NCBI GenBank assembly: GCA_963931925.1
Contig: OZ007579.1
Coordinates: 42,325,197-42,389,196 of the forward strand
Direction of reading: 5' to 3'
Source of the DNA: Onchidella celtica
Lineage: Eukaryota; Mollusca; Gastropoda; Systellommatophora; Onchidiidae
Length of the DNA: 64,000 bases
Shown here: in pieces, positions 6,548-59,857 of the stretch
How the letters are laid out: each line of letters starts with the position of its first letter
How positions within the stretch are numbered: the first letter of the stretch is position 1
Notes under the pieces: generated by a model
Databases searched by the model: none
What the model was told of the DNA's origin: nothing
Seen by the model: only the letters and a program-made list of their open reading frames with translations
Translations under genes and position numbers: made by a program

Positions 6548-6985
6548 ATGTCTGTTTTTGATAGTCCATGTGTCAATTCAAGTAAATCTGGATGTCAAGA
6601 CAAAACCGTCTTGATGTTGAGTACAACATTTATGAAGGAATTTTTGTCGTATTTTACATTCATCAATACAATGGTCTTCACTCCTTTGGTCTCACTGACT
6701 GGAATTGTGACCAATATCATCAACATTGTTGTGTTTATCAAACTGGGCGCGTTTGACACAATGAATATGACACTTCTGAGTTTGGCCATTGCAGATTTGA
6801 TCTCAGTTTTAGCGCTCATGCAATACTTTCCCCTCTGCCCCCTGTTTTACCCTGCAGGAGCTCGAAATTGTTCTTCGTTAATTTTGATGGTGAGCACACC
6901 TTTTACTTGGGCCAACAATGTGGCTAGCTGGATCACCGCGTTTGCAGCATTGGAGAGATATCTTTGTGTGAAGTTCCCACTAAAG
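6548..6985 (+). CDS. GPCR exon 1 (N-terminus to TM3/ERY)
   Basis: This exon encodes residues 1-146 and ends immediately after ERYLCVKFPLK, the start of the second intracellular loop. Splicing at AAAG|GTTAG gives ...FPLK-IKASLTTRRK..., a natural second loop. Without splicing the frame stays open into the adjoining minisatellite and soon stops, so the unspliced reading is not meaningful. The last 31 bases of the exon are themselves the first unit of the 33-bp minisatellite that follows. Confidence 0.85.
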
Positions 6986-9900
6986 GTTAGATATATTTTA
7001 TGTGAAGATACCAGTAAGGGTTAGATTCCTTTGTGCAAAGATCCCACTAAAGGTTAGATATCTTTATGTGAAGATATCAGTAAGGGTTAGATTTCTTTGT
7101 GTGAAGATATCACTGAAAATTAGATTTTGTGTAAAGATACCAATAAGGGCTAGATATCTTTGTGTGAAGATACCACTTAAGGTTAGATATCTTTGTGTAA
7201 AGATACCAATAAAGGTTAGATATCTTTGTGTGAAGAACACACATAAAACTTTCGATATCTTTGCGTGAAGATCTCACAATAGGTTAGATATCTTTATGTG
7301 AAGAACTGAAGGTTAAATGACTGTGTGAAGATGACACCTAAATTTAGATATAATTTATGTTTGTGTGTAGATCGCACTAAATGTTAGATTTATATGGAGA
7401 ACTTCACTAAAGAGTAGATATCTTTGTGCGAAGAACTCGCGTTAGATAGCTTTGAGTGAAGATGCCACGTAAGGTTAGGTAATTATCTTTGTGTGAAGAT
7501 TCCACTGAATGTCAGATATCTTTGTGTCAAGATCCCACTCAAAGTTCGATAAATATCCTGGTTGAAGATCGCACTAAATGTTAGTTTGCGTGAAGATCTC
7601 ACCAAAGACTAGATCGTGTGTGAAGATCCCAATAAAATTTAGCTGTATAATATAAAAAAAAATCGATTCATTGTACATCTGTATCTAGTGTCTTTGATAA
7701 TATCTATGTGTGAAGATACCACTTCATATTATTCTATTTGTGAAGGTTCCTCGAACGTTCCTATCAATAATTATTGTCAATAACTGTAAAACGGTGTTTG
7801 GTAAGTTGAGTAATGAGGATTTTGCGATTGACCGGGAGAAATTCAGGAATGCACAATGCATGTATTCTGAGAACGAGTTAGCCCGCGGATTCGGGGAATA
7901 CACAGATATGATTCTTAAAGTTGAGTTTCTATCAACAGTTTGTAAACTGAGGCGCAGAACGAAATTTCCTGTCATACCTTTTAATTCTACTCGGAGAAAA
8001 CACGTCCATTTTTTTTTCGGCTCAAAATGTTGGAACACCTTCCTTCCATTCAACTCAGAGACATGCTACTCTAATACTAGACTGCCCACCCCTTTTTTTG
8101 CCAGCACGCAAAGCGAAACCCTATCTCGGATGGCGGCCGCCATTTTCCTAACATGGCAAAACAAACCGCAGAGCTCTACGGGGTGAGCCGCAGAAAGGCC
8201 AGATGTAAGACGATAGCTGGCAAAAGGTTATATTTAAGGAGCCCTGAACACATAACTAATTTAAACACTGTGCAAGGCTTCAGCCTTTGGGGCGTATATT
8301 ATGGCACATCTCACAGTGAAAGAAACGAAAGTAGATAGATTATACAAAAAAAAAAAATATACACATAAATTAAAACTGATGTTTATAATCTGGTAGTGCC
8401 AATATATTAAATAATTTTTATGCATAAACTATTTTTGTTCTCCTGTTGTCTTTCATTCATCCTCCTGATCTGCGTCTTTCTCTCCTCCTGTTTTTCACCC
8501 ACAATATCATGCGTCACATTCTATTGTTGTGTTGTTTTCTTCACCTCTTCTTTTTTTTTTTGTCAGACCAGTTTTCACTCATACTACTTTTGTCACACTG
8601 CTGGCTCTTTTAGTTTCTCCCATAGAACTCATTTTCAGTTATTTTTCTGTTCTTTAACATACAGGATAAATCGAAGTTACCCTAAAGAGATACTAGGTAC
8701 AATAAGGTAAGATACTCCATTTTTCGCCCCTCTAAAAAGATCGTGCTGTGACCGGGGCCTATGGTGCACAGCATGAAAGAATGCTTGACATTAATGATGA
8801 ATTCATTATGCAGATTTGTTGCAGTGCTACTGCTACAGTGCTACTTTAAGTTAAGTTGATTTACATTTCTATTTCTAACTAGCAATCGTTTCCTTGAATG
8901 AACAGGATTAAATAAAGGTAGTAACCTGGAGCAAAGTTAGCAATGATCAGTTTCTCGGGCGATATTTTGCCATACTGTAATAGCCCCCGTGGCAACGTCA
9001 GTGGGCCTCTGTACCGTGAGCAGTCTAGTAAAAAAGTAGCATGTCTCTGGTTCAACTCAGTCATTGCTCAAAGTCAACCAAAGAGTTAAAACTATAGCGA
9101 ACTTCCTTTAAAATAATCACGCGCACACCCTTACGTCTATCTAAGGGGTAATATATTTTGTAGAATTTAAAGCTTAGCGGTTAAAAAAACCTTTCATGAT
9201 TGCAATTCCTTTAAATGATAATGATGACGCAAAATTACTTTTAGTTTCCTAATTTTAGACTAATGCATAATAGTTTCTAGTGATTATGACTCAGTCTTTG
9301 TTGCTTAATTCCACTGACCCGGGTTCTTACATCAGTGTCGCTGTGTCTATGGAATAAAAGTTTGAACCTGAACCAAGGATATTAGAGACAATAAAAGTTT
9401 GAACCTGACCAAAGGATATTAGAGACAATAAAAGTTTGAACCTGAACACCAAGGATATTAGAGACAATAAAAGTTTGAACCTGACCCAAGGATATTAGAG
9501 ACAATAAAAGTTTGAATGTGACCCAAGGATATTAGAGACAATAAAAGTTTGAACCTGATCCAAGGATATTAGAGACAATAAAAGTTTGAACCTGACCCAA
9601 GGATATTAGAGACAATAAAAGTTTGAACCTGAACACCAAGGATATTAGAGACAATAAAAGTTTGAACCTGAACACCAAGGATATTAGAGACAATAAAAGT
9701 TTGAACCTGAACACCAAGGATATTAGAGACAATAAAAGTTTGAACCTGAACACCAAGGATATTAGAGACAATAAAAGTTTGAACCTGAACACCAAGGATA
9801 TTAGAGACAATAAAAGTTTGAACCTGAACACCAAGGATATTAGAGACAATAAAAGTTTGAACCTGAACACCAAGGATATTAGAGACAATAAAAGTTTGAA

Positions 9901-12900
9901 CCTGAACACCAAGGATATTAGAGACAATAAAATTTTGAACCTGAACACCAAGGATATTAGAGACAATAAAAATTTGAACCTGAACACCAAGGATATTAGA
10001 GACAATAAAAGTTTGAACCTGAACACCAAGGATATTAGAGACAATAAAAGTTTGAACCTGAACACCAAGGATATTAGAGACAATAAAAGTTTGAACCTGA
10101 ACACCAAGGATATTAGAGACAATAAAAGTTTGAACCTGAACACCAAGGATATTAGAGACAATAAAAGTTTGAACCTGAACACCAAGGATATTAGAGACAA
10201 TAAAAGTTTGAACCTGAACACCAAGGATATTAGAGACAATAAAAGTTTGAAGCTGAACACCAAGGATATTAGAGACAATAAAAGTTTGAACCTGAACACC
10301 AAGGATATTAGAGACAATAAAAGTTTGAACCTGAACACCAAGGATATTAGAGACAATAAAAGTTTGAACCTGAACACCAAGGATATTAGAGACAATAAAA
10401 GTTTGAACCTGAACACCAAGGATATTAGAGACAATAAAAGTTTGAACCTGAACACCAAGGATATTAGAGACAATAAAAGTTTGAACCTGAACACCAAGGA
10501 TATTAGAGACAATAAAAGTTTGAACCTGAACACCAAGGATATTAGAGACAATAAAAGTTTGAACCTGAACACCAAGGATATTAGAGACAATAAAAGTTTG
10601 AACCTGAACACCAAGGATATTAGAGACAATAAAAGTTTGAACCTGAACACTAAGGATATTAGACACAATAAAAGTTTGAACCTGAACACCAAGGATATTA
10701 GAGACAATAAAAGTTTGAACCTGAACACCAAGGATATTAGAGACAATAAAAGTTTGAACCTGAACACCAAGGATATTAGAGACAATAAAAGTTTGAACCT
10801 GAACACCAAGGATATTAGAGACAATAAAAGTTGTTTGAACCTGAACACCAAGGATATTAGAGACAATAAAAGTTTGAACCTGAACACCAAGGATATTAGA
10901 GACAATAAAAGTTTGAACCTGAACACCAAGGATATTAGAGACAATAAAAGTTGTTTGAACCTGAACACCAAGGATATTAGAGACAATAAAAGTTGTTTGA
11001 ACCTGAACACCAAGGATATTAGAGACAATAAAAGTTGTTTGAACCTGAACACCAAGGATATTAGAGACAATAAAAGTTGTTTGAACCTGAACACCAAGGA
11101 TATTAGAGACAATAAAAGTTGTTTGAACCTGGACACCAAGGATATTAGAGACAATAAAAGTTTTTTGAACCTGAACACCAAGGATATTAGAGACAATAAA
11201 AGTTTGAACCTGAACACCAAGGATATTAGAGACAATAAAAGTTGTTTGAACCTGAACACCAAGGATATTAGAGACAATAAAAGTTGTTTGAACCTGAACA
11301 CCAAGGATATTAGAGACAATAAAAGTTGTTTGAACCTGAACACCAAGGATATTAGAGACAATAAAAGTTGTTTGAACCTGAACACCAAGGATATTAGAGA
11401 CAATAAAAGTTGTTTGAACCTGAACACCAAGGATATTAGAGACAATAAAAGTTGTTTGAACCTGAACACCAAGGATATTAGAGACAATAAAAGTTGTTTG
11501 AACCTGAACACCAAGGATATTAGAGACAATAAAAGTTGTTTGAACCTGAACACCAAGGATATTAGAGACAATAAAAGTTGTTTGAACCTGAACACAAAGG
11601 ATATTAGAGACAATAAAAGTTTGAACCTGAACACCAAGGATATTAGAGACAATAAAAGTTTGAACCTGAACACCAAGGATATTAGAGACAATAAAAGTTT
11701 GAACCTGAACACCAAGGATATTAGAGACAATAAAAGTTTGAACCTGAACACCAAGGATATTAGAGACAATAAAAGTTTGAACCTGAACACCAAGGATATT
11801 AGAGACAATAAAAGTTGGAACCTGAACACCAAGGATATTAGAGACAATAAAAGTTTGAACCTGAACACCAAGGATATTAGAGACAATAAAAGTTGTTTGA
11901 ACCCGAACACCAAGGATATTAGAGACAATAAAAGTTGTTTGAACCTGAACACCAAGGATATTAGAGACAATAAAAGTTTGAACCTGAACACCAAGGATAT
12001 TAGAGACAATAAAAGTTTGAAGCTGAACACCAAGGATATTAGAGACAATAAAAGTTTGAACCTGAACACCAAGGATATTAGAGACAATAAAAGTTTGAAG
12101 CTGAACACCAAGGATATTAGAGACAATAAAAGTTTGAACCTGAACACCAAGGATATTAGAGACAATAAAAGTTGTTTGAACCTGAACACCAAGGATATTA
12201 GAGACAATAAAAGTTGTTTGAACCCGAACACCAAGGATATTAGAGATAATAAAAGTTTGAACCTGAACACCAAGGATATTAGAGACAATAAAAGTTTGAA
12301 CCTGAACACCAAGGATATTAGAGACAATAAAAGTTTGAAGCTGAACACCAAGGATATTAGAGACGATAAAAGTTTGAACCTGAACACCAAGGATATTAGA
12401 GACAATAAAAGTTTGAAGCTGAACACCAAGGATATTAGAGACAATAAAAGTTTGAACCTGAACACCAAGGATATTAGAGACAATAAAAGTTTGAACCTGA
12501 ACACCAAGGATATTAGAGACAATAAAAGTGGTTTGAACCTGAACACCAAGGATATTAGAGACAATAAAAGTTGTTTGAACCTGAACACCAAGGATATTAG
12601 AGACAATAAAAGTTGTTTGAACCTGAACACCAAGGATATTAGAGACAATAAAAGTTTTTTGAACCTGAACACCAAGGATATTAGAGACAATAAAAGTTTG
12701 AACCTGAACACCAAGGATATTAGAGACAATAAAAGTTGTTTGAACCTGAACACCAAGGATATTAGAGACAATAAAAGTTTGAACCTGAACACCAAGGATA
12801 TTAGAGACAATAAAAGTTGTTTGAACCTGAACACCAAGGATATTAGAGACAATAAAAGTTTTTTGAACCTGAACACCAAGGATATTAGAGACAATAAAAG

Positions 12901-15900
12901 TTGTTTGAACCTGAACACCAAGGATATTAGAGACAATAAAAGTTGTTTGAACCTGAACACCAAGGATATTAGAGACAATAAAAGTTGTTTGAACCTGAAC
13001 ACCAAGGATATTAGAGACAATAAAAGTTGTTTGAACCTGAACACCAAGGATATTAGAGACAATAAAAGTTGTTTGAACCTGAACACCAAGGATATTAGAG
13101 ACCTTAAAAGTTGTTTGAACCTGAACACCAAGGGTATTAGAGACAATAAAAGTTTGAACCTGAACACCAAGGATATTAGAGACAATAAAAGTTTGAACCT
13201 GAACACCAAGGATATTAGAGACAATAAAAGTTTGAACCTGAACACCAAGGATATTAGAGACAATAAAAGTTTGAACCTGAACACCAAGGATATTAGAGAC
13301 AATAAAAGTTTGAACCTGAACACCAAGGATATTAGAGACAATAAAAGTTTGAACCTGAACACCAAGGGTATTAGAGACAATAAAAGTTTGAACCTGAACA
13401 CCAAGGATATTAGAGACAATAAAAGTTTGAACCTGAACACCAAGGATATTAGAGACAATAAAAGTTTGAACCTGAACACCAAGGATATTAGAGACAATAA
13501 AAGTTTGAACCTGAACACCAAGGATATTAGAGACAATAAAAGTTTGAACCTGAACACCAAGGATATTAGAGACAATAAAAGTTTGAACCTGAACACCAAG
13601 GATATTAGAGACAACAAAAGTTTGAACCTGAACACCAAGGATATTAGAGACAATAAAAGTTTGAACCTGAACACCAAGGATATTAGAGACAATAAAAGTT
13701 TGAACCTGAACACCAAGGATATTAGAGACAATAAAAGTTTGAACCTGAACACCAAGGATATTAGAGACAATAAAAGTTTGAACCTGACCAAAGGATATTA
13801 GAGACAATAAAAGTTTGAACCTGAACACCAAGGGTATTAGAGACAATAAAAGTTTGAACCTGAACACCAAGGATATTAGAGACAATAAAAGTTTGAACCT
13901 GAACACCAAGGATATTAGAGACAATAAAAGTTTGAACCTGAACACCAAGGATATTAGAGACAATAAAAGTTTGAACCTGAACACCAAGGATATTAGAGAC
14001 AATAAAAGTTTGAACCTGAACACCAAGGATATTAGAGACAATAAAAGTTTGAACCTGAACACCAAGGATATTAGAGACAATAAAAGTTTGAACCTGAACA
14101 CCAAGGATACTAGAGACAATAAAAGTTTGAACCTGAACACCAAGGATATTAGAGGCAATAAAAGTTTGAACCTGAACACCAAGGATATTAGAGACAATAA
14201 AAGTTTGAACCTGAACACCAAGGATATTAGAGACAATAAAAGTTTGAACCTGAACACCAAGGATATTAGAGACAATAAAAGTTTGAACCTTAACACCAAG
14301 GATATTAGAGACAATAAAAGTTTGAACCTGAACACCAAGGATATTAGAGACAATAAAAGTTTGAACCTGAACACCAAGGATATTAGAGACAATAAAAGTT
14401 TGAAGCTGAACACCAAGGATATTAGAGACAATAAAAGTTTGAAGCTGAACACCAAGGATATTAGAGACAATAAAAGTTTGAAGCTGAACACCAAGGATAT
14501 TAGAGACAATAAAAGTTTGAAGCTGAACACCAAGGATATTAGAGACAATAAAAGTTTGAACCTGAACACCAAGGATATTAGAGACAATAAAAGTTTGAAC
14601 CTGAACACCAAGGATATTAGAGACAATAAAAGTTTGAACCTGAACACCAAGGATATTAGAGACAATAAAAGTTTGAACCTGAACACCAAGGATATTAGAG
14701 ACAATAAAAGTTTGAACCTGAACACCAAGGATATTAGAGACAATAAAAGTTTGAACCTGAACACCAAGGATATTAGAGACAATAAAAGTTTGAAGCTGAA
14801 CACCAAGGATATTAGAGACAATAAAAGTTTGAAGCTGAACACCAAGGATATTAGAGACAATAAAAGTTTGAACCTGAACACCAAGGATATTAGAGACAAT
14901 AAAAGTTTGAACCTGAACACCAAGGATATTAGAGACAATAAAAGTTGTTTGAACCTGAACACCAAGGATATTAGAGACAATAAAAGTTGTTTGAACCCGA
15001 ACACCAAGGATATTAGAGACAATAAAAGTTTGAACCTGAACACCAAGGATATTAGAGACAATAAAAGTTTGAACCTGAACACCAAGGATATTAGAGACAA
15101 TAAAAGTTTGAACCTGAACACCAAGGATATTAGAGACAATAAAAGTTTGAACCTGAACACCAAGGATATTAGAGACAATAAAAGTTTGAAGCTGAACACC
15201 AAGGATATTAGTGACAATAAAAGTTTGAAGCTGAACAGCAAGGATATTAGAGACAATAAAAGTTGTTTGAACCTGAACACCAAGGATATTAGAGACAATA
15301 AAAGTTGTTTGAACCTGAACATCAAGGATATTAGAGACAATAAAAATTGTTTGAACCTGAACACCAAGGATATTAGAGACAATAAAAGTTGTTTGAACCT
15401 GAACACCAAGGATATTAGAGACAATAAAAGTTGTTTGAACCTGAACACCAAGGATATTAGAGACAATAAAAGTTGTTTGAACCTGAACACCAAGGATATT
15501 AGAGACAATAAAAGTTTGAACCTGAACACCAAGGATATTAGAGACAATAAAAGTTTGAACCTGAACACCAAGGATATTAGAGACAATAAAAGTTGTTTGA
15601 ACCTGAACACCAAGGATATTAGAGACAATAAAAGTTTGAACCTGAACACCAAGGATATTAGAGACAATAAAAGTTTGAACCTGAACACCAAGGATATTAG
15701 AGACAATAAAAGTTTGAACCTGAACACCAAGGATATTAGAGACAATAAAAGTTTGAACCTGAACACCAAGGATATTAGAGACAATAAAAGTTTGAACCTG
15801 AACACCAAGGATATTAGGGACAATAAAAGTTTGAACCTGAAAACCAAGGATATTAGGGACAATAAAAGTTTGAACCTGAACACCAAGGATATTAGGGACA

Positions 15901-18900
15901 ATAAAAGTTTGAACCTGAACACCAAGGATATTAGAGACAATAAAAGTTTTAACCTGAACACCAAGGATATTAGAGACAACAAAAGTTTGAACCTGAACAC
16001 CAAGGATATTAGAGACAATAAAAGTTTGAACCTGAACACCAAGGATATTAGAGACAATAAAAGTTTGAACCTGAACACCAAGGATATTAGAGACAATAAA
16101 AGTTTGAACCTGAACACCAAGGATATTAGAGACAATAAAAGTTTGAACCTGAACACCAAGGATATTAGAGACAATAAAAGTTTGAAGCTGAACACCAAGG
16201 ATATTAGAGACAATAAAAGTTTGAACCTGAACACCAAGGATATTAGAGACAATAAAAGTTTGAACCTGACCCAAGGATATTAGAGACAATAAAAGTTTGA
16301 ACCTGAACACCAAGGATATTAGAGACAATAAAAGTTTGAACCTGAACACCAAGGATATTAGAGACAATAAAAGTTTGAACCTGAACACCAAGGATATTAG
16401 AGACAATAAAAGTTTGAACCTGAACACCAAGGATATTAGAGACAATAAAAGTTTGAACCTGAACACCAAGGATATTAGAGACAATAAAAGTTTGAACCTG
16501 AACACCAAGGATATTAGAGACAATAAAAGTTTGAACCTGAACACCAAGGATATTAGAGACAATAAAAGTTTGAACCTGAACACCAAGGATATTAGAGACA
16601 ATAAAAGTTTGAACCTGAACACCAAGGATATTAGAGACAATAAAAGTTTGAACCCGAACACCAAGGATATTAGAGACAATAAAAGTTTGAACCCGAACAC
16701 CAAGGATATTAGAGACAATAAAAGTTTGAACCTGAACACCAAGGATATTAGAGACAATAAAAGTTTGAACCTGAACACCAAGGATATTAGAGACAATAAA
16801 AGTTTGAACCTGAACACCAAGGATATTAGAGACAATAAAAGTTTGAACCTGAACACCAAGGATATTAGAGACAATAAAAGTTTGAACCTGAACACTAAGG
16901 ATATTAGAGACAATAAAAGTTTGAACCTGAACACCAAGGATATTAGAGACAATAAAAGTTTGAACCTGAACACCAAGGATATTAGAGACAATAAAAGTTT
17001 GAACCTGAACACCAAGGATATTAGAGACAATAAAAGTTTGAACCTGAACACCAAGGATATTAGAGACAATAAAAGTTGTTTGAACCTGAACACCAAGGAT
17101 ATTAGAGACAATAAAAGTTTGAACCTGAACACCAACGATATTAGAGACAATAAAAGTTTGAACCTGAACACCAAGGATATTAGAGACAATAAAAGTTGTT
17201 TGAACCTGAACACCAAGGATATTAGAGACAATAAAAGTTGTTTGAACCTGAACACCAAGGATATTAGAGACAATAAAAGTTGTTTGAACCTGAACACCAA
17301 GGATATTAGAGACAATAAAAGTTGTTTGAACCTGAACACCAAGGATATTAGAGACAATAAAAGTTGTTTGAACCTGAACACCAAGGATATTAGAGACAAT
17401 AAAAGTTGTTTGAACCTGAACACCAAGGATATTAGAGACAATAAAAGTTTGAACCTGAACACCAAGGATATTAGAGACAATAAAAGTTGTTTGAACCTGA
17501 ACACCAAGGATATTAGAGACAATAAAAGTTTGAACCTGAACACCAAGGATATTAGAGACAATAAAAGTTGTTTGAACCTGAACACCAAGGATATTAGAGA
17601 CAATAAAAGTTGTTTGAACCTGAACACCAAGGATATTAGAGACAATAAAAGTTGTTTGAACCTGAACACCAAGGATATTAGAGACAATAAAAGTTGTTTG
17701 AACCTGAACACCAAGGATATTAGAGACAATAAAAGTTGTTTGAACCTGAACACCAAGGATATTAGAGACAATAAAAGTTTGAACCTGAACACCAAGGATA
17801 TTAGAGACAATAAAAGTTTGAACCTGAACACCAAGGATATTAGAGACAATAAAAGTTTGAACCTGAACACTAAGGATATTAGAGACAATAAAAGTTTGAA
17901 CCTGAACACCAAGGATATTAGAGACAATAAAAGTTTGAACCTGAACACCAAGGATATTAGAGACAATAAAAGTTTGAACCTGAACACCAAGGATATTAGA
18001 GACAATAAAAGTTTGAACCTGAACACCAAGGATATTAGAGACAATAAAAGTTTGAACCTGAACACCAAGGATATTAGAGACAATAAAAGTTTGAACCTGA
18101 ACACCAAGGATATTAGAGACAATAAAAGTTTGAACCTGAACACCAAGGATATTAGAGACAATAAAAGTTTGAACCTGAACACCAAGGATATTAGAGACAA
18201 TAAAAGTTTGAACCTGAACACCAAGGATATTAGAGACAATAAAAGTTTGAACCTGAACACCAAGGATATTAGAGACAGTAAAAGTTTGAACCTGAACACC
18301 AAGGATATTAGAGACAATAAAAGTTTGAACCTGAACACCAAGGATATTAGAGACAATAAAAGTTTGAACCTGAACACCAAGGATATTAGAGACAATAAAA
18401 GTTTGAACCTGAACACCAAGGATATTAGAGACAATAAAAGTTTGAACCTGAACACCAAGGATATTAGAGACAATAAAAGTTTGAACCTGAACACCAAGGA
18501 TATTAGAGACAATAAAAGTTTGAAGCTGAACACCAAGGATATTAGAGACAATAAAAGTTTGAAGCTGAACAGCAAGGATATTAGAGACAATAAAAGTTTG
18601 AACCTGAACACCAAGGATATTAGAGACAATAAAAGTTTGAACCTGAACACCAAGGATATTAGAGACAATAAAAGTTTGAACCTGAACACCAAGGATATTA
18701 GAGACAATAAAAGTTTGAAGCTGAACACCAAGGATATTAGAGACAATAAAAGTTTGAACCTGAACACCAAGGATATTAGAGACAATAAAAGTTTGAACCT
18801 GAACACCAAGGATATTAGAGACAATAAAAGTTTGAACCTGAACACCAAGGATATTAGAGACAATAAAATGAGACGGTCCCTCCTCCGCGCGTTAAAAAAA

Positions 18901-20040
18901 AAAAATCATTCTGTTTGTGAGCTGATCGGGGGCGGGGCCCATGGCACACTGATGGAAGGAATGCTTGATGTATGATAAATTAATGATGCGCATTTGTTAC
19001 ATCGCTACCGCAACTTAAAAACAAATGGGGTGGATCCTACACTGATTAAAGTCATAATTACAAAATAAGTGACTTTAGGTTAAGGCCTACAGCGAAAGCT
19101 GAACAGTGAACAGAATACAATATTTTCCATGTAATTGGTTTCATGAAATACGACATTGTTCACGGCTTCCGTATATTAGCGTGCACGCCAAACATGCTGT
19201 TTAAGTAGCAGTAGGACTGCAACAAATCGGCATAATGAATTCATCATTAATGTCAAGCATTCTTTCGTGCTGTGCACCATAGGCCCCGGTCACAGCGCGA
19301 TCTTTTTAGAGGGGCGAAAAATGGAGTGTCTTTACCTTATTGTATCTAGTATCCTTGGTTTAATAAGTACATCTTTTTTTTTTTTTACTTGGAGTACATG
19401 TAATGTTATTTCAAAACTTTCCGCTTTATTCTTTTTTCCCCAGATTAAAGCATCATTGACAACTCGACGAAAGTTCGTAGTAATCGTAGCAGCCTACATC
19501 CTGACCAGCATCCCTGCTATCACATTGCTGGTAGACCGCCTCTCTCTACGACCACCGATCGACCTTTCCAGGCAAGACAGAAACCAGACTACATCAAGTA
19601 CTAGGAAAAGCCTGACTGACGTTTTCTACATGGGTGTGAATATTTCACGGGCCCAGAATCATCTTGCGTATTTCTTAGTGGTGCTTCTCACCATTCTAAT
19701 AGTTTTGGAGCTCAAAATGAAGACACGGTGGAGACTCAGGGCAACTGCACAAATTTCCTCTGCGACTACGAGAAGTCTCAGCGTGCTCAGGATGGTGGTT
19801 TTTATCTGTATCATGTTTATAATTTTCTCCGCCCCTGCGAACATTTTACTTACGGTTTCTCAGATTGAGGAGGCATCAGGACACACCGCCGTGAAAGACT
19901 TTGGGCTTCGCTTCTCCCTAACAAACTTCATGATGACAATGCAAAGTATAAATTCGTCCGTCAACGCTTTCATGTACTTGAAAATGAGTTCAAAGTATCG
20001 GGAGAAATTCACATTACTTTTTCGCGGAACCAGAAATTAA
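6548..20040 (+). CDS. Class-A (rhodopsin-like) GPCR, two exons
   Basis: Joining 6548-6985 to 19444-20040 gives a 344-residue seven-transmembrane receptor. The donor reads AAAG|GTTAG and the acceptor is a pyrimidine tract ending CCCCAG|ATTAAA; both cut at phase 0. An in-frame TGA two codons before the ATG supports the start. Visible parts: N-glycosylation site N10; TM1 about 40-66 (GIVTN, N56); TM2 about 75-97 (LAIADL, D83); TM3 about 118-139 ending in ERY (136-138), the family's D/ERY motif; TM4 157-178; second extracellular loop with NQT (about 193); TM5 216-236; TM6 260-284; TM7 304-325 with NSSVNAFMY replacing the usual NPxxY. The tail is short and basic (KYREKF). It probably acts at the plasma membrane as a peptide or chemosensory receptor of the kind expanded in molluscs; the ligand cannot be read from sequence. 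The intron is dominated by two tandem arrays. Confidence 0.85.
6955..7725 (+). repeat. 33-bp minisatellite seeded on the exon 1 splice donor
   Basis: About 22 head-to-tail copies of a unit near 33 bp, each running AGATATCTTTGTGTGAAGAT and then a form of CCCACTAAAGGTT. The first unit is the coding end of GPCR exon 1 plus its donor, so the array copies the exon-intron junction. Units near the exon are close to 33 bp and well conserved; distal ones vary from about 28 to 40 bp and fade by about 7725. Several units keep AAGGTTAG, identical to the used donor. Confidence 0.85.
7726..8676. other. Intron sequence with no recognised gene
   Basis: Unique-looking intron DNA between the donor minisatellite and the inverted-repeat block. 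Overlapping open frames of 158 codons (+, 7710-8186) and 109 codons (-, 7724-8053) match no family I know. A CpG-containing stretch at about 8100-8220 and a T/C-rich stretch at about 8430-8640 are visible. Confidence 0.5.
8688..8836 (+). repeat. Left inverted repeat of the satellite element
   Basis: It runs from AGATACTAGGTACAATAAGG through CGCCCCTCTAAAAAGATCG and GAATGCTTGACATTAATGATG to GCTACTGCTAC. It matches 19205-19358 reversed, with only scattered substitutions and one single-base gap. Confidence 0.8.
8837..9351. other. Element interior left of the satellite array
   Basis: No gene is recognised here. The last 50 bases before the array (about 9310-9351) end CTGTGTCTATGGAATAAAAG and run without a break into the first satellite unit. 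Confidence 0.4.
9352..18868 (+). repeat. Giant 39/42-bp satellite array, about 240 units
   Basis: Head-to-tail units of 39 bp (AATAAAAGTTTGAACCTGAA, then CACCAAGGATATTAGAGAC) with a common 42-bp variant carrying an extra TTG (AAAAGTTGTTTGAACC). At about 39.6 bp per unit, 9.5 kb gives roughly 240 copies. Most units are identical; recurring variants are GAAGCTG, AACCCG and AACAGCAAG. Because 39 and 42 are both multiples of three and the unit lacks stops in several frames, both strands stay open for kilobases; these are not genes. Rare 37-bp units (CTGACCAAAGG or CTGACCCAAGG) occur near the left edge and at about 13785 and 16265, marking internal block boundaries. Confidence 0.97.
18869..19016 (+). 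repeat. Divergent third copy of the element's terminal repeat
   Basis: After the last satellite unit the sequence continues TCCTCCGCGCGTTAAAAAA ... GAATGCTTGATG ... TTAATGATGCGCATTTG. This is a diverged, same-orientation relative of the left inverted repeat (CGCCCCTCTAAAAAG ... GAATGCTTGACATTAATGATG). The final satellite unit therefore sits exactly where the outer end of the terminal repeat should be. Confidence 0.7.
19205..19358 (-). repeat. Right inverted repeat of the satellite element
   Basis: Reverse complement of 8688-8836. Read on the minus strand its outer end is ACCAAGGATACTAGATACAA, strikingly close to the satellite's ACCAAGGATATTAGAGACAA. It ends about 85 bases before the exon 2 acceptor. 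Confidence 0.8.
19444..20040 (+). CDS. GPCR exon 2 (TM4 to C-terminus)
   Basis: This exon encodes residues 147-344 and the stop codon. It begins after TTCTTTTTTCCCCAG. The open frame extends upstream through the right inverted repeat of the satellite element, but that part is intronic: it lacks receptor character and lies before a strong acceptor. TM4, TM5, TM6 and TM7 are clear hydrophobic segments. Confidence 0.85.
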   Translation: MKASLTTRRKFVVIVAAYILTSIPAITLLVDRLSLRPPIDLSRQDRNQTTSSTRKSLTDVFYMGVNISRAQNHLAYFLVVLLTILIVLELKMKTRWRLRATAQISSATTRSLSVLRMVVFICIMFIIFSAPANILLTVSQIEEASGHTAVKDFGLRFSLTNFMMTMQSINSSVNAFMYLKMSSKYREKFTLLFRGTRN

Positions 20041-28400: not shown

Positions 28401-31400
28401 CTATTTTCTACAGAACAGGAGGTCTTTTGGTATATAGAAGAGGTATAACCAATGTACACTCCGACAGTTCTTTAAAATGCTCTGTGGCCGAAGAGGTATT
28501 TTTCGGTAACTACCACGGTACCCCACCCCAACCCTATTTTTTTTAATTTCGGTGTCTGAAAATCACTTGGGGCCAAAGAGCTTATAAAAGATAATAGCGA
28601 AAATCAAGATAATGTGAGAAGATAATAATAATATATTTAGAAGGATCCATTTAAGAAAAAAAAAAAAAAAACGCCGATCGGCGCTGCACTGTAGCCACGA
28701 GGTATCTGCTCCAGTTGTATCTGGGTTGCCGTAACACTAAGGAAAATTTCCCAAATGAGATTAAAGAAGTACACAATATATATATATACAAAATACCTAA
28801 ACAAAAAAAACAAAAAAACACCACATTTTCATGGATTCAAATCTATTCTCCCGCTGAAAGGTCCTTTCACCGTCCTTGTCAAGATTAGCTGAGCATCCAA
28901 ACACTATGCATTGATGCATCATGCCATAGTAAGTCCATCGTGATGTAAACACTCGCTTGGCCCTCAGTTGAGCGAGGTCAGGGAATTGCTAGCGGGACGG
29001 GCCGCGAGAATCTGTTTTACACTGCGTTGCCGGAAAGGAGGTACTTCTTTGGAATCCCCGTGACTATTTATAATAACCGCACAGGCGATCATTACGTCAC
29101 CGAATTCCTTGGGTAAAGCCTGTTAATTGGAATTGGGAGTCACCTCCCTTTAACATGGCTATATTTTTTTGTAACATCCGAACAACCGGTGAATTCCTTG
29201 GGTAATGCCCACTCTAATGTAGATCTAATAGTCTAAAGAAATAGCCACGAGAACGTGAAAACTTTCCTTGGCGGCAGGATGTTGTTGAACATACTCCTTG
29301 CGTCTCATCCCTCGAGACCCGCTCTCACACAATGCTGTGGTTCCCACCTGTGTGGTATAAATCTAGATCTAGATTTAGATTCAATTGTCATTAGATATCT
29401 TGTCAGTCAAAGCTCACACACCCTCATATCTGTATGATAGAAATCTGGATCTAGATTTTATTATCATTAGGCTACATATCTCATCACTCAAGGCTCACAC
29501 TCTTATACCTGTATGGTATAAATCTAGATCTAAATTTAAATATCATTACATATCTCATGACTCAAGGCTCCCACTGTCATACCTGTGTGATATAAATCTA
29601 GATATCTAGATCTAGATTTAATTATCATTAAGTATCTCATGACTCAAGGCTCCCATTGTCATACCTGTGTGATATAAATCTAGATCTAGATTTAATTATC
29701 ATTAAGTATCTCATGACTCAAGGCTCACACTCTCATATCTGTGTGATATAAAGCTAGATCTAGATTATCATTAAGTATCTCATGACTCAAGGCTCACACT
29801 CTCATATCTGTGTGATATAAAGCTAGATCTAGATTTCATTATCGTTACATATCTCATCACTCAAGCCTCACACTCTCATATCTGTGTCATATAAATCTAG
29901 ATCTAGATTTAATTATCATTACATATTTCATCACTCAAGCCTCACACTCTCATATCTGTGTGGTATTGATATAGATTTAATTATCCTTACATATCTCAAG
30001 ACTCACCCTCTCAGATCTGTGTGATGCTGGCTAGATCTAAGCATAATTTTATCTTTCATCGCTCAATCTCTCATATTTATTGCTGCTGGTCAACAGCTCT
30101 GTGATAGGAGATTAGATTTAATTAGGCCTATGACTTCATATTTTATTATTCTTACCTGTGTAATACAGATACACTGAATTATTATGTTGTATCTCACAAT
30201 TCAAGGCTCACTCTCTGTCTCTCATACTGCTGCAATTCAACATCTGTGTGATCAGATCTAGATCTAACTGTGATTCCATACCTCATCACTCAGGACTCAC
30301 TTCCTCCTACTGCACTCTGGCTATCTCTGGTGAATTTTAATCAGTAGCCTATCTTGCCAGTGCAATTCATTGTAGGCCACAGTGTAAATCTAGAACTGCT
30401 TAAAAAAGCAAGTCAACAGGAAAGTTTTTAATTGTAACTGGGATTTATTAGTTGGTGATTTTATTGTGCGGTAAAAATGAAGATAACCGCACTCGCTAGA
30501 CCTCTAATCCTACAGCTCTAGTCTAACTAGCCTGCAGAGTGGAGAAATGTACATTGCACATATCTGATCTAGATCTAGATATCTAGATCTAATTCTTCTG
30601 TGACGGAAATGACGGGCTTACTTTCATCACGTTATTCATAAATTATTAAAACTGACAACTACCTGAAACGAAATGCTCGGCACAAACGGAATGGGTCGAC
30701 TCACTTGCTGGTTGGTAGCTTGTGAACCATACCACAGTCGAACGACGTTCGGTCAATTCTTTCACTTCCTTTCCTTTGTTTACACGAATGGTGGGGAATC
30801 TGACCAACTTTTATCCATCCTTTTCACCCCTGTCGCGCATAGCAATCAACGATAATGCAGCTAGTAGGCATTTTAGTTAACAAAACCGCTTCGATATAAT
30901 TATCTCTAAGTTACACTAATCATCTGATCCACCGGCCAAACAATCGCGATGGCGGAAAAACAAAACAAAAGCACAACGTGACGTCATGCGCATTCTACCT
31001 GTAAGTTAGCCTATAGTTGGCCGATGACGGAGCGGGAAATGCCTCCTACTGCGCATGCGATATTTTATTATGGTCACAAAGGGTGAGGTGGTGACGTAGA
31101 GCTTTGTTTGGCTTTCCGGCAACGCAGTGTAAAAAAGATTCTCGCGGACGGGCCATATGGTACACTGCACGATCTAGCTGTTACTACTACCTGTTTGGTC
31201 GTGGCACTTGTCAAGCTGTTTCACAGCTCCGATTTATTGTCATTCCTTATCATAATACTACAGCCCCAAACGTTTAACTTTTAATTTTTCAATTGAGCAA
31301 AAAAGTGGATTTGGAACCAACAAGAATTATGGTCGCCTTTTATTACCATTAAGCACCTTCGTTTCTAACCGCTTCGCCATTTTGTGTGTGTGTGTGTGTG

Positions 31401-37572: not shown

Positions 37573-39147
37573 CTAGGCTCGACTAAGGTAGTCGGCGATA
37601 TGATTGCTGGTTCCTGGAATTGGTTGAATAACGAAGGTATACGGCTGCAAAGCCAATGCCCATCTAGACAAGCGTGGGCTGGACGAACGATTCTTCGACA
37701 AAAATGTCAGTGGCTTGTGGTCTGTCTGGATACAAAATTCTCGTCCCATGAGATAACGTCCTAGTTTCTGGACGGACCAGACAATGGCAAGACACTCACG
37801 CTCTATCACAGAATACTTTCTTTCTCTCTGCAATAACTTCCTACTGACATAACATACAGGATGGAGACATTCGTTCTTCTCCTGTAGAAGACAAGCGCCG
37901 ACACCAGAGTCCGACGCATCCGTTCTGAGGATAAAATTAGATCGAAAATCGGGTAATATCAGAATGGGTGACGATGATAATGCTGTCACCAAATTATCAA
38001 ATGATGTCTGACATTCAGACGTCCACTGGACCTTATCGGGTTGTCCCTTCTTAGTAAGGTCAGTAAGAGAAGACGACAAGGAGGAAAAATTTGGAATGAA
38101 CTTTCTGTAATAATTTAAAATTCCCACTAAGCTTCTGACTTGTTTCTTTGTTTTTGGGATTTGCAACCCTACTAACTTGTCAATTTTTGTTTCTTCAGGT
38201 CTCTGAACACCTCTACCCACAATATGTCCTAAGAATACTATCTCTGGACATGCCAAATCCATCTTTGCGGGTTTAGCAGTTAACCCAAAATGACGTAATC
38301 GTTGAAAAATTACTGTTAGTGTCTGAATATGATCAGACCATGTCGACGTATGGCATGCTATATCGTCAAAGAATGACACGACATTAGGTATGTCCTTCAA
38401 CACTAGTCTCATTAATCGTGCAAACGTCGCTGGCGCGTTTACCAACCCAAATGGCATGACCTTAAATTGGAATAATCCAATGGGCGTTTGGAACGCCGTG
38501 TATTGTTTAGACTCCTCAGTAAGCGGAATTTCCCAATACCCTTTCGTCAAATCTATCTTGGAAAACCACGTGGACCCGGCCAATGAAGCTATTAATTCCT
38601 CCTGAAACGGGATAGGCTCCCTATCGCCTACCGTAATAGTGTTCAATCTTCGAAAATCAATACAGAACCGCACCGATCCATCAAGTTTTTTCACGAGGAC
38701 GATGGGTGATGAATACGGCGATGTTGATGGTTCTATCACATCTAACTTCAACATTGACTCAACTTCCTTTATGACTCTATCTCTCGAAGAAAAAGGCAGC
38801 GGATACGGTCTAAGAAATACTGGCTTATCGGAAGTCAACTTTATTTGGTGCTGGATCACCGTAGTGCGACCCGGCAAATCCGTAACAACATCCGGAAATG
38901 ACGCTAACAGGGTCTCAAGTTCCCTACTCCTTGAACTCGTAAGGTCAGGGTTAATTTTTACGTCCCTGTAACCTTGTGTCGGAGTTAACTCCGGCAATTG
39001 AATTTGTAACTCCTCCTGCGCCTCGGTGTCGCTTACGTCACAGTCCAACTGGTCTACGACCCCCGTACAAGCAATAGAGAAGACAGTCTCCTCTGGTCTT
39101 GTCTGTGCACACAGATACTGTGGTCTCTCATAAAATCTCTGTAGCAT
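37573..39147 (-). CDS. Element part: reverse transcriptase and RNase H
   Basis: A 524-codon open stretch. RT is recognised from KLDGSVRFCIDFRRLN, WFSKIDLTKGYWEIPL, TPIGLFQFKVMPFGL and the FFDD catalytic box. The connection and RNase H follow (ILRTDASDSGVGACLLQ, IERECLAIVWSVQKL, FCIQTDHKPLTFL). Similarity is to gypsy-type RT, not copia. It is the downstream half of the element's coding region. Confidence 0.9.
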   Translation of the reverse strand: MLQRFYERPQYLCAQTRPEETVFSIACTGVVDQLDCDVSDTEAQEELQIQLPELTPTQGYRDVKINPDLTSSRSRELETLLASFPDVVTDLPGRTTVIQHQIKLTSDKPVFLRPYPLPFSSRDRVIKEVESMLKLDVIEPSTSPYSSPIVLVKKLDGSVRFCIDFRRLNTITVGDREPIPFQEELIASLAGSTWFSKIDLTKGYWEIPLTEESKQYTAFQTPIGLFQFKVMPFGLVNAPATFARLMRLVLKDIPNVVSFFDDIACHTSTWSDHIQTLTVIFQRLRHFGLTAKPAKMDLACPEIVFLGHIVGRGVQRPEETKIDKLVGLQIPKTKKQVRSLVGILNYYRKFIPNFSSLSSSLTDLTKKGQPDKVQWTSECQTSFDNLVTALSSSPILILPDFRSNFILRTDASDSGVGACLLQEKNECLHPVCYVSRKLLQRERKYSVIERECLAIVWSVQKLGRYLMGREFCIQTDHKPLTFLSKNRSSSPRLSRWALALQPYTFVIQPIPGTSNHIADYLSRA

Positions 39148-39210
39148 GTTAACATGGAAAACCTTACTCGCTCCATCAATGTGGATAGCGTAATCTACCT
39201 TTGAAACAAC

Positions 39211-42200
39211 TCACTCAATAACATAAGGACCTTTCCATGTCATCAATAACTTATTATGGTCCGTAGGTAATAACAACAGAACCTTGTCTCCTGGCTTAAA
39301 AATTCTCAGTTTGGAACCTCTATCCTTATAGTCTTTTGCTCTTTTCGAAGCGATACCAGAAGCTTCTTCTGCTATAGTGCGCGCAGAAGATAGTCTTTCT
39401 CTTAAATCAACAAGGTACTGAAACACCGAAATCTGCTCCTCGTCTCCCGATGATGGCGACGTCATCATGTCCCGAAGAACATCAGTTGGGCCCCTAGGAC
39501 TACGACCGTACATCATTTCGAACGGCGAGAATCCCGTTGACTCCTGCCGTACCTCTCTGTACGCGAATAACACTGCAGGGATATATCTATCCCAATCTTT
39601 AGGGCGATCAGCAGCTACCTTACGCAGCATCGACTTTAACGTCGAGTTCAATCTCTCGCACATGCCATTAGCCTGCGGATGATAAGGGGTGGTAGTGATG
39701 GGTTGTATACTGAATAAGCGGAACAATTCCTTCATCATCTGCGACGTAAATTGCGCGCCCCTATCAGACAGAATTTGCTCTGGTATTCCTACTCTAGCGA
39801 AAATTGCAAACAACGCTTCCGCGACTGCCTCAGACGTTATGGTCCGCAGAGGAACCGCCTCTGGCCATCTCGTAGCATTACATATGACCGTTAAGAAAAA
39901 TCGATTCCCCCTATCGGTCGCTGGGTGAATGGGGCCAACAAGGTCTATCGAGACCTTTTTAAACGGTTCCGAGACCGTGGGGATCTTCTGAAGAGGAGCC
40001 TGGGGTGTACGACCCTTATGCGTCGTCTTTTGGCACGCACTGCACGTCTTACAATAGACCTGCACATCTCTGTGGATCGATGGCCAGTAAAAATTTTTAA
40101 GAACCCTTTCTTTGGTTCTAGCTATCCCCATATGACCCGCTAATGGGACATCATGTGCCAAATGCAATACTGTTGCGATCAGCAACGCTGGCACAACGAC
40201 CTGCTTTAAAATGGAGGACACCGTTACATACTTACGGAACAGAATGCCCGCCTGAACAAAAAAAGATGACCCGTTCTTATATCTCCTCGTTTTCTCGGTT
40301 CGCGCTTCCCCAAAACATGGGTTTAATGATGGGTCCTCCCTTTGTAGTCTCGCCAAGCGCTCTGGCGTGATATCTAGGTTGACCGCTGGCGTCGCCAAAG
40401 GTCTAATCTTATCTTTATCAACTACTCGTCGACGTGTTTCGACCGCGGCGCAAAAGTCAATACCTTTTGATTGCGACCATGCTTGCACGTTCTCATCGGA
40501 AGGGGAAACTACCCGTGATACATTCCCAATGATGAGCTGGGCGCCTGGAAAACAACCAACGACTGCTTCGACTTCTCCGCTAAGGAAAGGTGTATCTATC
40601 ATTATTCTTGCCATGGGTAATTTCTCAATGGCCCCCGAAAATTGGATGCACGGGACAGTCTCACCTGTAAGCTGTGAATCCCGAATGCAATCCCTATGCA
40701 CTCCCACAACGGTAGATCCTGTATCTCGTAAAACCGAGACCGGTTCGTCCCCAACAAACCCCGGATAAACCCTAAGACCACCTCCTGTATGACATGAATT
40801 TATAACGGGGATCTTTCTCCCACAAGGTAAAACACCGGAAGATAATAACTTCTCACAACTGGGACACTTAGAATACTGTCCGCCTCCGTTGTCCGATGTA
40901 ACGCACGCAGCCGCATGATGAAATTTATTTGGGGAACATGGACTGGAGCTACTGTCCACGTTCGCCGCTATCCTACCTGCAGGGCAGTTCACGCTGATGT
41001 GATCTGCTCTTCCGCAGTTCCAACACTTCGCGGCCCTACACTCGCGCGAAAAGTGACCCACGCGTCCGCAAGTCCAACACTCCGCTCCCTGTGCTGCCCT
41101 AGGCCTGGGTCCCCGTGACCCCTCGCGACCGGAACTAGAGTCCCTATGCCGTCGGTCGTCGGCAAAGGTCACAACTCGCCCCCGGCCATTACCGCGACCT
41201 AGCCCTCCTGCTCGGTCAAACTTACCGGATCCATATGCCGGTGATTGGTGATAGCCCCTATGCTGCCCCTGGGCTTGCCCACTATAGGCACCACGCTGAC
41301 GCGACCTGTCCCTAAGTCCTGCCGGCGACCCCTCGGCAACGGCGACGTACCCAGCATCTTGGACGTACGCCCTGGCGACTGGTTTGGACGGATGCGCCGT
41401 ACGGTATGCCTCCGCCAACTTAGACGCCTCCTGCACCGTCGCGGGTTCGTTCTCTTTCAGGAAAGCCACCAGATCTTTGTGGCACGACGCGTACAGCTGG
41501 TCACGGATCATTAAGTCTTTCAGTTTAGCAAAATCCGCGCCCACATGCGCCAAGTCTACCCAGTTCGCGAAATACTCCGTTAGTCTCGCGACGAAGGCAG
41601 CAAAGTCCTCCCTGGTATCTGCACGTGCCCGCCTAAACTGCTCCCGGAAATATTCCTCGGTACGCGCAAATCGGCGAAGCAGCAAAGCCTTCAGCTTATC
41701 GTAATCTTGCACGTCTTCGCGCTGTAGCTCTTTAAAGTAGGTTAACGCTCGCCCCTGCAATAGAGACGCCAGGTACGTGGCCCATAATTCCTTATTTTCC
41801 CCCCATTGCAATTGTGCGTTCAGTTCGAACCTGTAAAGGAAGGCGTCTATGTCGTCCTTCCGGTCGTCGAACGTAGGGAGCTTAATCCTAACGCCACCCT
41901 TATTGTGTACCTGCCGCTCAGCCGTTTCCGCTGGCGTATTCTTCTTGAGTTCTAACTCCGCAATCTTTACTTGCGCCTCTATCTCCTTTAACCTTATCTC
42001 TTGCTCCCTTTCCTTAGCCTGTCTCTCCTGTTGCTGAGCTTCTAACTCCTTTAACTTAAACTCCCTTTCCTGTTCCTTATCCTTAGCCTCTCTTTCTTGT
42101 TGCTGAGCCTTAGCCTCTCTTTCCTCTTCTCTCTGTCGCTCTTGAGCCTCTTTTTCTCGCTCTCTATCCTTAGCACGCTCATCGCGCAAATCCGCCTGCT

Positions 42201-42282
42201 GTTCTTTAATCCAGCCGCGTAGCTCCTCTCCCTCCAGGCCAAGTTCCTTACCCAACTTCATTAGTTGTTGGAGTTCCGCCAT
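39211..42282 (-). CDS. Element part: Gag, protease and integrase
   Basis: A 1023-codon open stretch. Residues about 1-115 are a highly charged E/K/Q/R coiled coil. The Gag core at about 130-300 ends in two zinc knuckles (CWTCGRVGHFSRECR, CWNCGRADHISVNCP; about 400-435). A protease-like DTGSTVVGVH lies near 520. An HHCC zinc finger (GHMGIARTKERVLKNFYWP, CKTCSACQ) precedes the integrase core (VSIDLVGPI, LSDRGAQFTSQ, YHPQANGMCERLN) and a basic C-terminal domain (FKPGDKVLLLLP). Integrase thus lies upstream of RT. Confidence 0.9.
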   Translation of the reverse strand: MAELQQLMKLGKELGLEGEELRGWIKEQQADLRDERAKDREREKEAQERQREEEREAKAQQQEREAKDKEQEREFKLKELEAQQQERQAKEREQEIRLKEIEAQVKIAELELKKNTPAETAERQVHNKGGVRIKLPTFDDRKDDIDAFLYRFELNAQLQWGENKELWATYLASLLQGRALTYFKELQREDVQDYDKLKALLLRRFARTEEYFREQFRRARADTREDFAAFVARLTEYFANWVDLAHVGADFAKLKDLMIRDQLYASCHKDLVAFLKENEPATVQEASKLAEAYRTAHPSKPVARAYVQDAGYVAVAEGSPAGLRDRSRQRGAYSGQAQGQHRGYHQSPAYGSGKFDRAGGLGRGNGRGRVVTFADDRRHRDSSSGREGSRGPRPRAAQGAECWTCGRVGHFSRECRAAKCWNCGRADHISVNCPAGRIAANVDSSSSPCSPNKFHHAAACVTSDNGGGQYSKCPSCEKLLSSGVLPCGRKIPVINSCHTGGGLRVYPGFVGDEPVSVLRDTGSTVVGVHRDCIRDSQLTGETVPCIQFSGAIEKLPMARIMIDTPFLSGEVEAVVGCFPGAQLIIGNVSRVVSPSDENVQAWSQSKGIDFCAAVETRRRVVDKDKIRPLATPAVNLDITPERLARLQREDPSLNPCFGEARTEKTRRYKNGSSFFVQAGILFRKYVTVSSILKQVVVPALLIATVLHLAHDVPLAGHMGIARTKERVLKNFYWPSIHRDVQVYCKTCSACQKTTHKGRTPQAPLQKIPTVSEPFKKVSIDLVGPIHPATDRGNRFFLTVICNATRWPEAVPLRTITSEAVAEALFAIFARVGIPEQILSDRGAQFTSQMMKELFRLFSIQPITTTPYHPQANGMCERLNSTLKSMLRKVAADRPKDWDRYIPAVLFAYREVRQESTGFSPFEMMYGRSPRGPTDVLRDMMTSPSSGDEEQISVFQYLVDLRERLSSARTIAEEASGIASKRAKDYKDRGSKLRIFKPGDKVLLLLPTDHNKLLMTWKGPYVIE

Positions 42283-43212
42283 TTCACAGATTTATGGTTA
42301 TGGTATATATTTAAAAAAAACGGCTAACCTGTCGGTATGATAACTAACGACACGTCCAGAGACCTGAGATCACACCAGATATAACAATACCCAATTGTCC
42401 CAAATACAATTCAGAAATTTACCTTTACAGCACAACTAATTCCATATCTATAAAATGCATAGCACTATTAATTATAAAAGAAAATAGAAATGACAAGAAT
42501 GAAGAAATACAATAGAAGGACCACAAGTACGTCAAGGACAACGAACCAGACTAGGACAAAGCTTCTACAAAAAAAAACTATAATGGAAAAAAAAATGCAA
42601 CCTACTACGCCGATTACACAACACGGTACGAACGAGAACAGAGTCTGAAAAAAAAGAACGTATCTATAGATAGGTAGAAAGAGGGACAAGAGAATACGTC
42701 TTCCTGCGGAACAGAGAAGATATCGACGCTACAATCTAAACAAAAATACAGGTCCCTACAGAACTGTTCACTGTGATGAACGAAGTTCCAAATTTAGCCC
42801 ACCTCCCGAAGAGGATAAACTACGCTCACCACAGCAAACCCGCGCCACCGCCCGTATAATCAATTACGACAAAAACAGCAAAAACAGGGAAACAGACAGA
42901 TGAAAAGACAGCCCTCAATCCAGGGTACAAAATTTTCACTTAACTTTCAATTTTTGAAATTTTGAGTAAAACTCCTCCCTTTAATCGGAGCTCTGGCTGC
43001 TCGTCTCCTCAGGCTGCACGCACACACTCTGGAAAGTTTAAATACACATTAATACCTATTCATAGCAATACATGCATCAATACATATTATTATTCATAAA
43101 CATACATAAATCATATCATCATGAAATTTCCATTCATCCCACGAACAAAGACAACAGCACGAATTCCTAGCACAACAGAAAAACAACTAAATATAACGAA
43201 TACACAATGTCA

Positions 43213-50024: not shown

Positions 50025-50690
50025 TATTCCACCATTCATCCCACAACTCCATACATACAAATTTCTTGTCATTTGATAAAGTCACTCACTACACATATTC
50101 CACAATTCACCCCACAACTCCATATATACAAATTTCTTGTCATTTGATAAAGTCACTCACTACACATATTCCACAATTCACCCCACAACTTCATACATAC
50201 AAATTTCTTGTCATTTGATAAAGTCACTCACTACACATATTCCACAATTCACCCCACAACTGCATACATACAAATTTCTTGTCATTTGATAAAGTCACTC
50301 ACTACACATATTCCACAATTCACCCCACAACTCCATACATACAAATTTCTTGTCATTTGATAAAGTCACTCACTACACATATTCCACAATTCACCCCACA
50401 ACTTCATACATACAAATTTCTTGTCATTTGATAAAGTCACTCACTACACATATTCCACAATTCACCCCACAACTCCATGCATACAAATTTCTTGTCATTT
50501 GATAAAGTCACTCACTACACATATTCCACAATTCACCCCACAACTTCATACATACAAATTCTTGACACCTGATAAAGCCACCAGTCACTCACTGCAGGTA
50601 TTCCACCATTCGTCCCACAACTCCATACATACAAATTCTTGACAGCTGATAATCATCCATCATTCACTGGAGGTATTCCACCCATTTTTT
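50025..50690 (+). repeat. 71-bp tandem array, about 9 copies
   Basis: Units run CAACTCCATACATACAAATT, TCTTGTCATTTGATAAAGTC, ACTCACTACACATATTCCAC, AATTCACCCCA. Seven central copies are nearly identical and the outer ones are diverged. Successive CACAATTCAC starts at 50101, 50172 and 50243 give the 71-bp period. Confidence 0.92.
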
Positions 50691-59388: not shown

Positions 59389-59455
59389 CTTTTCCTGTAT
59401 TATATATGGCCTTTAGCGTCTTTACAGACGGTCTTAGCAGCTAGAATATTCACTT

Positions 59456-59818: not shown

Positions 59819-59857
59819 ACGGTGGAGATGTCCAAGCCACCGCAGTCTTTTTTTTGC

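Follow-up and report, generated by a model that had tools for sequence, protein, structure and literature searches.

In amphioxus, exon-intron boundaries that are copied in tandem in the manner of a minisatellite are known as mirages, and many of the copies carry AG/GT. Mirages occur in Adh3, the globins BflGb6 and BflGb9, troponin C and PGBD5; they involve either the 5' or the 3' boundary, the Adh3 units measure 10 to 72 bp, and the accessible parts of the reports mention length polymorphism together with correct splicing (PMC3087553, PMC3902484). The polyubiquitin gene UBC has tandem units each with a dual-specific AGGT splice site, which according to the available text can give stochastic isoforms with differing unit numbers (PMC10809524). 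Introns gained by tandem genomic duplication have been reported from fission yeast, with 24-nt repeats (PMC3629103), and from the potato RdRp gene (PMC4974935). Among mollusc receptors, the accessible part of the work on Aplysia describes the rhodopsin-like families AcCRa-c as clustered and mostly single-exon, with Glu-Arg conserved where TM3 ends and with one intron in AcCRa, at ISLM/GLAV (PMC2700072).

Here we describe a tandem array of 33-bp units that spans the exon-intron boundary, predicted from homology, of a GPCR gene in Onchidella celtica and of 11 sister genes. The gene lies in a stretch of 64 kb, the window, and its features are listed in Table 1. Judged by sequence, the array is a mirage in the anatomical sense: as in the amphioxus cases, so far as the available reports describe them, tandem units span the boundary and many hold a splice signal, and the unit length falls within the Adh3 range. 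Unlike those cases, it belongs to a mollusc GPCR, lies on the donor side, recurs at 13 loci of one family in three clades and shows measurable donor evolution. What seems new relative to amphioxus is that the array has persisted through a whole gene family, with look-alike sites that are apparently wearing away. An earlier note on this DNA knew of no GPCR with such an arrangement; our literature search, with subscription papers mostly outside its coverage, likewise found no such array in a GPCR or a mollusc, but the arrangement as such is known in other genes, as the available text on amphioxus mirages shows (PMC3087553). We consider it likely that a mirage-type array was seeded once, that its first donor (D1) is probably the sole productive one, that the downstream copies act as decoys and that the array turns over internally.

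The receptor array shares with UBC, as far as the available source goes, tandem units that hold AGGT; the UBC repeats are the coding product, whereas the receptor array lies within a predicted intron whose acceptor is of the conventional kind. With AcCRa-c the receptors share clustering, rhodopsin-like character, a chiefly single-exon organization and the Glu-Arg at the end of TM3, but the motif in the receptor subfamily is ERY, compared with ERC in Aplysia, and the accessible part of the Aplysia report describes neither an intron at PLK|I nor an array (PMC2700072). Two distant multi-exon relatives in the O. celtica genome, L081 (C3:56.17 Mb) and L082 (C5:7.89 Mb), have an exon start near GLAISDLG, which resembles the ISLM/GLAV intron of AcCRa, and a further intron at PLK|V. 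Separately, a receptor-like exon-1 match at G000:C10:54974766-54975110 belongs to an open frame that extends over 2,847 aa, far too long for the family.

Table 1. Features of the receptor gene and its array in the window (positions counted from the first nucleotide of the window)
Feature	Position	Strand	Basis
GPCR exon 1 (N terminus to intracellular loop 2, ending ...RYLCVKFPLK)	6548..6985	+	ORF, homology
33-bp minisatellite, 22 parsed units including exon unit and terminal fragment	6956..7642	+	TRF, wraparound alignment
First 33-bp unit: 30 exon bases (RYLCVKFPLK) and intron GTT	6956..6988	+	TRF, wraparound alignment
First donor D1, AAG|GTTAGA	6983..6991	+	homologous donors in sister genes
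Intron, 12,458 nt	6986..19443	+	predicted from homology
Shifted donor-like site CCA|GTAAGG, +28 from D1, truncating	7011..7019	+	
TAG in exon 1 frame, closes any exon extension	7022..7024	+	
Exact copy of donor 9-mer, +67, out of phase	7050..7058	+	
Exact copy of donor 9-mer, +196, out of phase	7179..7187	+	
Exact copy of donor 9-mer, +229, out of phase	7212..7220	+	
Isolated distal unit	7700..7723	+	
Unrelated 39-bp satellite in the intron, about 240 copies	9353..18868	+	
Acceptor CCCCAG with pyrimidine-rich stretch; no unit-like sequence	19424..19443	+	
GPCR exon 2 (IKASLTTRR... to C terminus, stop included)	19444..20040	+	

Joined across the predicted junctions (donor AAAG|GTTAGA after 6985, acceptor CCCCAG|ATTAAA at 19444), the two exons of the window gene would encode a product of 344 aa. 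This spliced product matches Srw over residues 46 to 339 (38.1 bits against a Pfam cut-off of 22.2) and 7tm_1 over residues 70 to 324 (34.7 bits against 30.5); exon 1 alone matched no family in the profile search (E 0.01). The gene probably encodes a snail receptor of the rhodopsin-like or Srw chemoreceptor GPCR class. Most of its intron is occupied by the 39-bp satellite (97% matches), which a genome search placed at this one location only, and the intron of the sister gene A26.100 is just 1,351 nt long, compared with 12,458 nt in the window gene. Because its unit length is divisible by 3, the satellite yields spurious ORFs on either strand, the longest of 2,236 aa. An Rfam scan of the 64-kb window at gathering scores gave no match. 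Elsewhere in the window there are a 24-bp tandem array at 1994-2205 (8.8 copies, 99% matches) and two further minisatellites, at 29346-30005 (units of about 74 bp) and 50025-50652 (units of about 71 bp). Judged by eye from translations, a minus-strand retroelement at 37573-42291 has one ORF with gag-like, protease-like and integrase-like motifs (39211-42291) and a next ORF with reverse transcriptase and RNase H (37573-39210), so that the integrase seemingly precedes the reverse transcriptase, an order that we take to be that of Gmr1-type elements; LINE-like endonuclease and reverse transcriptase ORFs lie at 58687-62689, also on the minus strand.

The sequence confirms the array. TRF reports a 33-bp array starting at 6956 with a score of 399, and the opening 740 nt of the intron reach a score of 652, compared with at most 25 in 50 dinucleotide shuffles. 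TRF and wraparound alignment bear out the earlier statement that the first unit is the coding end of exon 1 plus its donor. The unit has its source in exonic sequence that includes a proto-splice site, the codons for RYLCVKFPLKV with AAAG|GTT. Where about 21 further units had been claimed, we parse 22 in all, with the exon unit and a terminal fragment included, besides the isolated unit at 7700-7723. The donor 9-mer AAGGTTAGA occurs four times (at 6983, 7050, 7179 and 7212), always within the array and nowhere else in the window on either strand, in agreement with the claim that the donor is preserved in its context in several downstream units. Since the second unit of the window array is 34 nt long, the three exact downstream copies do not share the phase of exon 1.

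The array is not peculiar to the window gene. In a search of the 1.14-Gb genome, the unit gave at least 57 matches, all within 13 loci of one GPCR subfamily: the window and twelve loci on C11 near 26.10, 28.07-28.12 and 32.09-32.16 Mb. A recognizable exon-1 end is present at 12 of these 13 loci (the window gene, A26.100, B28.066, C28.078, D28.089, E28.098, G28.116, H32.090, I, J, K32.146 and M32.154; letters alone are used below where convenient), and in all 12 the array starts at the identical point of the exon. The earlier note had named an array without the exon in related species as evidence against its reading; the loci within this genome do not contradict that reading, the one exception being F28.109, where the array is accompanied by an exon-2 match that holds a stop, exon 1 is not recognized, and a search for an exon-1 relic beside the array gave, apart from the unit matches, nothing better than E 0.78. 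The junction reads GT[T/A]AGA in 11 of the 12 members and ATAAGA in E28.098. Joining both exons of nine genes gave an uninterrupted product in five (the window gene, A, B, C and D); G28.116 has a stop inside exon 2. The exon-1 protein of A26.100 is 89% identical to that of the window gene. Between 4 and 25 units were parsed per array (11 genes, one assembly). The array is a family-wide trait found in three clades.

Where did the array come from? The exonic part of the unit is the family's conserved post-TM3 motif, R[YC]LC...PLK. We aligned 36 whole ORFs (L020-L038 and L052-L068), one of which (L055) is a subfamily member; in the remaining 35, all outside the subfamily, the reading frame runs contiguously across the intron site. 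This contiguity of the motif in 35 of 35 intronless relatives indicates that the array was derived from the exon and upholds the proposal that it was seeded from the exon end with its donor. The seed would have been a 33-bp segment, made up of the final 30 bases of exon 1 and the first 3 of the intron, that was duplicated in tandem, most likely in an event that took place once, in the ancestor of the small subfamily, with inheritance thereafter. The junction of such a duplication, GTT/AGATAT, supplies bases +4 to +6 of D1, which probably matter for U1 pairing. It is this shared junction, and not a tree of the units, that makes a single origin the most likely one.

The array is old relative to its surroundings. 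In the tree and dS analysis, which took in the window gene and A, B, C, D, G and K, the dS to the window gene is 0.13 for A, 0.56-0.62 for C, D, G and K and 1.25 for B, and between-clade values are 0.52-1.48. Outside the array, and with the 39-bp satellite of the window gene left out, intron sequences were similar (E 1e-4) in seven of seven within-clade pairs and in none of 14 between-clade pairs. Between clades, the array has outlived the remaining intron sequence.

Within the arrays, copies appear to be replaced by one another. Near-identical blocks lie inside the arrays of D28.089 (31-bp units), B28.066 (62-bp doublets) and F28.109 (67-bp doublets), and these higher-order blocks point to internal turnover, presumably by slippage or unequal exchange. 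The interior position of the blocks also weakens the idea of outward growth from the junction. That idea came with the observation that units decay with distance from the exon, which is borne out by the window gene (rho -0.50, p 0.024) and A26.100 (rho -0.46, p 0.034) but not by most others: p fell below 0.05 in only these two of the nine genes tested, a set without H and M and without the terminal fragments of the window gene, G and J.

D1 reads GTTAGA in the window gene, A, B and M, and GTAAGA in seven of the 12 members (C, D, G, H, I, J and K, with T at -1 in I). On a generic scoring matrix that may not suit O. celtica, GTAAGA scores 7.2 where -1 is G, compared with 2.9 for GTTAGA; the predicted U1 duplexes have -9.5 and -5.6 kcal/mol, respectively. 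If the tree is rooted outside the subfamily, B is the earliest branch (91/97 support) and GTTAGA is the older state; the tree itself is unrooted. If the root does lie there, one clade would have strengthened D1 to GTAAGA.

The downstream copies show the opposite tendency. Over the intronic units of 10 genes, AG|GT is 71% conserved, which makes it the second least conserved of the 33 four-base stretches of the unit, behind the overlapping AAGG; its conservation is below that of the rest of the unit in nine of the 10, the exception being M32.154 (0.81 versus 0.80). Among the 33 unit positions, the decoy G at -1 ranks lowest or second lowest and the G at +1 third lowest, with deletions set aside and about 168 units after D1 counted in 10 genes (E, F and H were left out of the unit-position counts); the rank varies with the consensus used. 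By clade, the ranks of G -1 and G +1 are 2-3 and 7 in the window gene and A, 2-3 and 3-4 in B and M, and 2 and 3 in C-K,G. This low conservation would fit the removal of decoy donors, in a ranking whose units share ancestry and are not independent and which was conceived post hoc; the decay could be mutational instead. Purging is in any case incomplete: several exact copies of the donor persist in both the window gene and A26.100, and two besides D1 in M32.154.

A plainer account holds that this is a neutral intronic minisatellite that starts in the exon by chance, does not influence splicing and has decoys that are not under selection. It is less a competitor than a weaker form of the preferred explanation, from which it is not exclusive, and we regard it as possible but not probable. 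The distal arrays of the window gene and A26.100 are collinear at 88-94% identity, about what their synonymous divergence (dS 0.13) would give, and amphioxus mirages are reported, in the available text, as not disturbing regular splicing (PMC3087553); the first 300 columns of the same alignment are 81-86% identical. Neutrality accords poorly with the decay of the donor Gs above that of most unit positions in all three clades, most clearly at -1, and with the strengthening of D1 in one clade. We favor decoys that are tolerated or slowly purged, with D1, to judge by homology and by the evolution of the donor, as probably the only productive site.

The earlier note had proposed that downstream donors lengthen intracellular loop 2 by multiples of about 11 residues. 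For the window gene this fails: none of its seven downstream donors above the cut-off of 2 bits restores a full-length product, because the reading frame runs into the TAG at 7022 or the donor lies in the wrong phase, and their use would yield receptors cut off soon after TM3. Full length is likewise restored by none of the downstream donors of C28.078 (0 of 1), D28.089 (0 of 2) and K32.146 (0 of 1), and B28.066 has no scored downstream donor; the frame test left out M32.154 and H32.090. Formally, the proposal survives in two sisters. In A26.100, four of seven downstream donors (+66, +165, +195 and +234) give open, full-length products with gains of 22, 55, 65 and 78 residues, and in G28.116 one of two (+33) keeps the frame and adds 11 residues, but exon 2 of G28.116 holds a stop. 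The frame of A26.100 is open through about ten units whose lengths are all multiples of 3, which may leave room for longer isoforms there. No purifying selection was seen on these units: in the six units with a length of 33 nt, out of nine parsed in A26.100, codons depart from the consensus by a nonsynonymous change in 16 cases and by a synonymous one in 6, close to the ratio of 69 to 24 for random single changes. Alternative donors that lengthen loop 2 are, in our judgment, very improbable, and the copies are better read as decoys.

Did the array create the intron? An in-frame 33-bp coding repeat of 11 codons (RYLCVKIPLKV) might have expanded in an intronless gene and become the intron. The duplication junction would then have made the donor, and selection would since have picked one site, strengthening the first and eroding the copies. 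We hold both this origin and the array-made intron that follows from it to be unlikely, although they do not exclude the later history that we prefer; our estimates for the explanations are not mutually exclusive, and intron birth and neutrality each share most of the best explanation. Several observations suit an intron born in this way. The unit is exactly 11 codons long with a consensus free of stops in the coding frame, and the duplication junction creates the donor bases +4A and +5G. The intron site is occupied by Val in 33 of the 35 intronless relatives and by AG|GT in 18 of the 35. Of the non-subfamily exon-1 matches, 132 of 137 fall within ORFs that are 300 aa or longer and are probably intronless (among the best 150 of 953 candidates). 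There are precedents, too, in the accessible parts of the work on the fission yeast 24-nt repeats (PMC3629103) and of a repeat model (PMC10809524).

The 3' side of the intron speaks against such a birth. Its last 150 nt contain no clear unit in any of 10 genes, the unit score at this end was reached by 5 of 100 shuffles for B28.066, by 14 of 100 for A26.100 and by at least 34 of 100 for the others, and repeat copies were not found at both ends of the intron. The receptor intron resembles the fission yeast and potato RdRp cases, as available to us, in having exon-derived tandem units with proto-splice sites at the intron, and differs in that its 3' end is not visibly derived from the unit and that the intron is maybe older. 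The intron position also points away from the array as its origin: the exon starts at the same codon, after AG, in four distant relatives (three on C3 and one on C5). These come from seven short-ORF relatives chosen because they were apparently interrupted, four of which start the exon at the PLK|I site; one has a stop, and in two LKVK is uninterrupted and the exon start seems to lie farther upstream. Both C3/C5 relatives for which the upstream exon was retrieved have a donor at the same phase-0 site, and a search of their introns for the array (156 nt and 1,285 nt downstream of the donor) gave only matches of 7-11 nt, at E 0.12 or worse. The PLK|I intron may predate the array. In the tree, which is unrooted and therefore does not polarize intron gain versus loss, the seven subfamily genes stand apart from 37 others with 100/100 support.

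Gene annotators should expect that exon 1 is followed by near-identical donors in some genes of the subfamily. The system bears on whether coding repeats can give rise to introns, and if the intron was indeed born from the array, the subfamily would hold a family-wide record of the birth of an intron and of the splice-site competition that followed. Tandem donors that start out equal, with the first one strengthened in some lineages only, let the cost of decoys be tested, and a boundary-spanning minisatellite kept through a family of paralogues is a natural experiment on splice-site competition.
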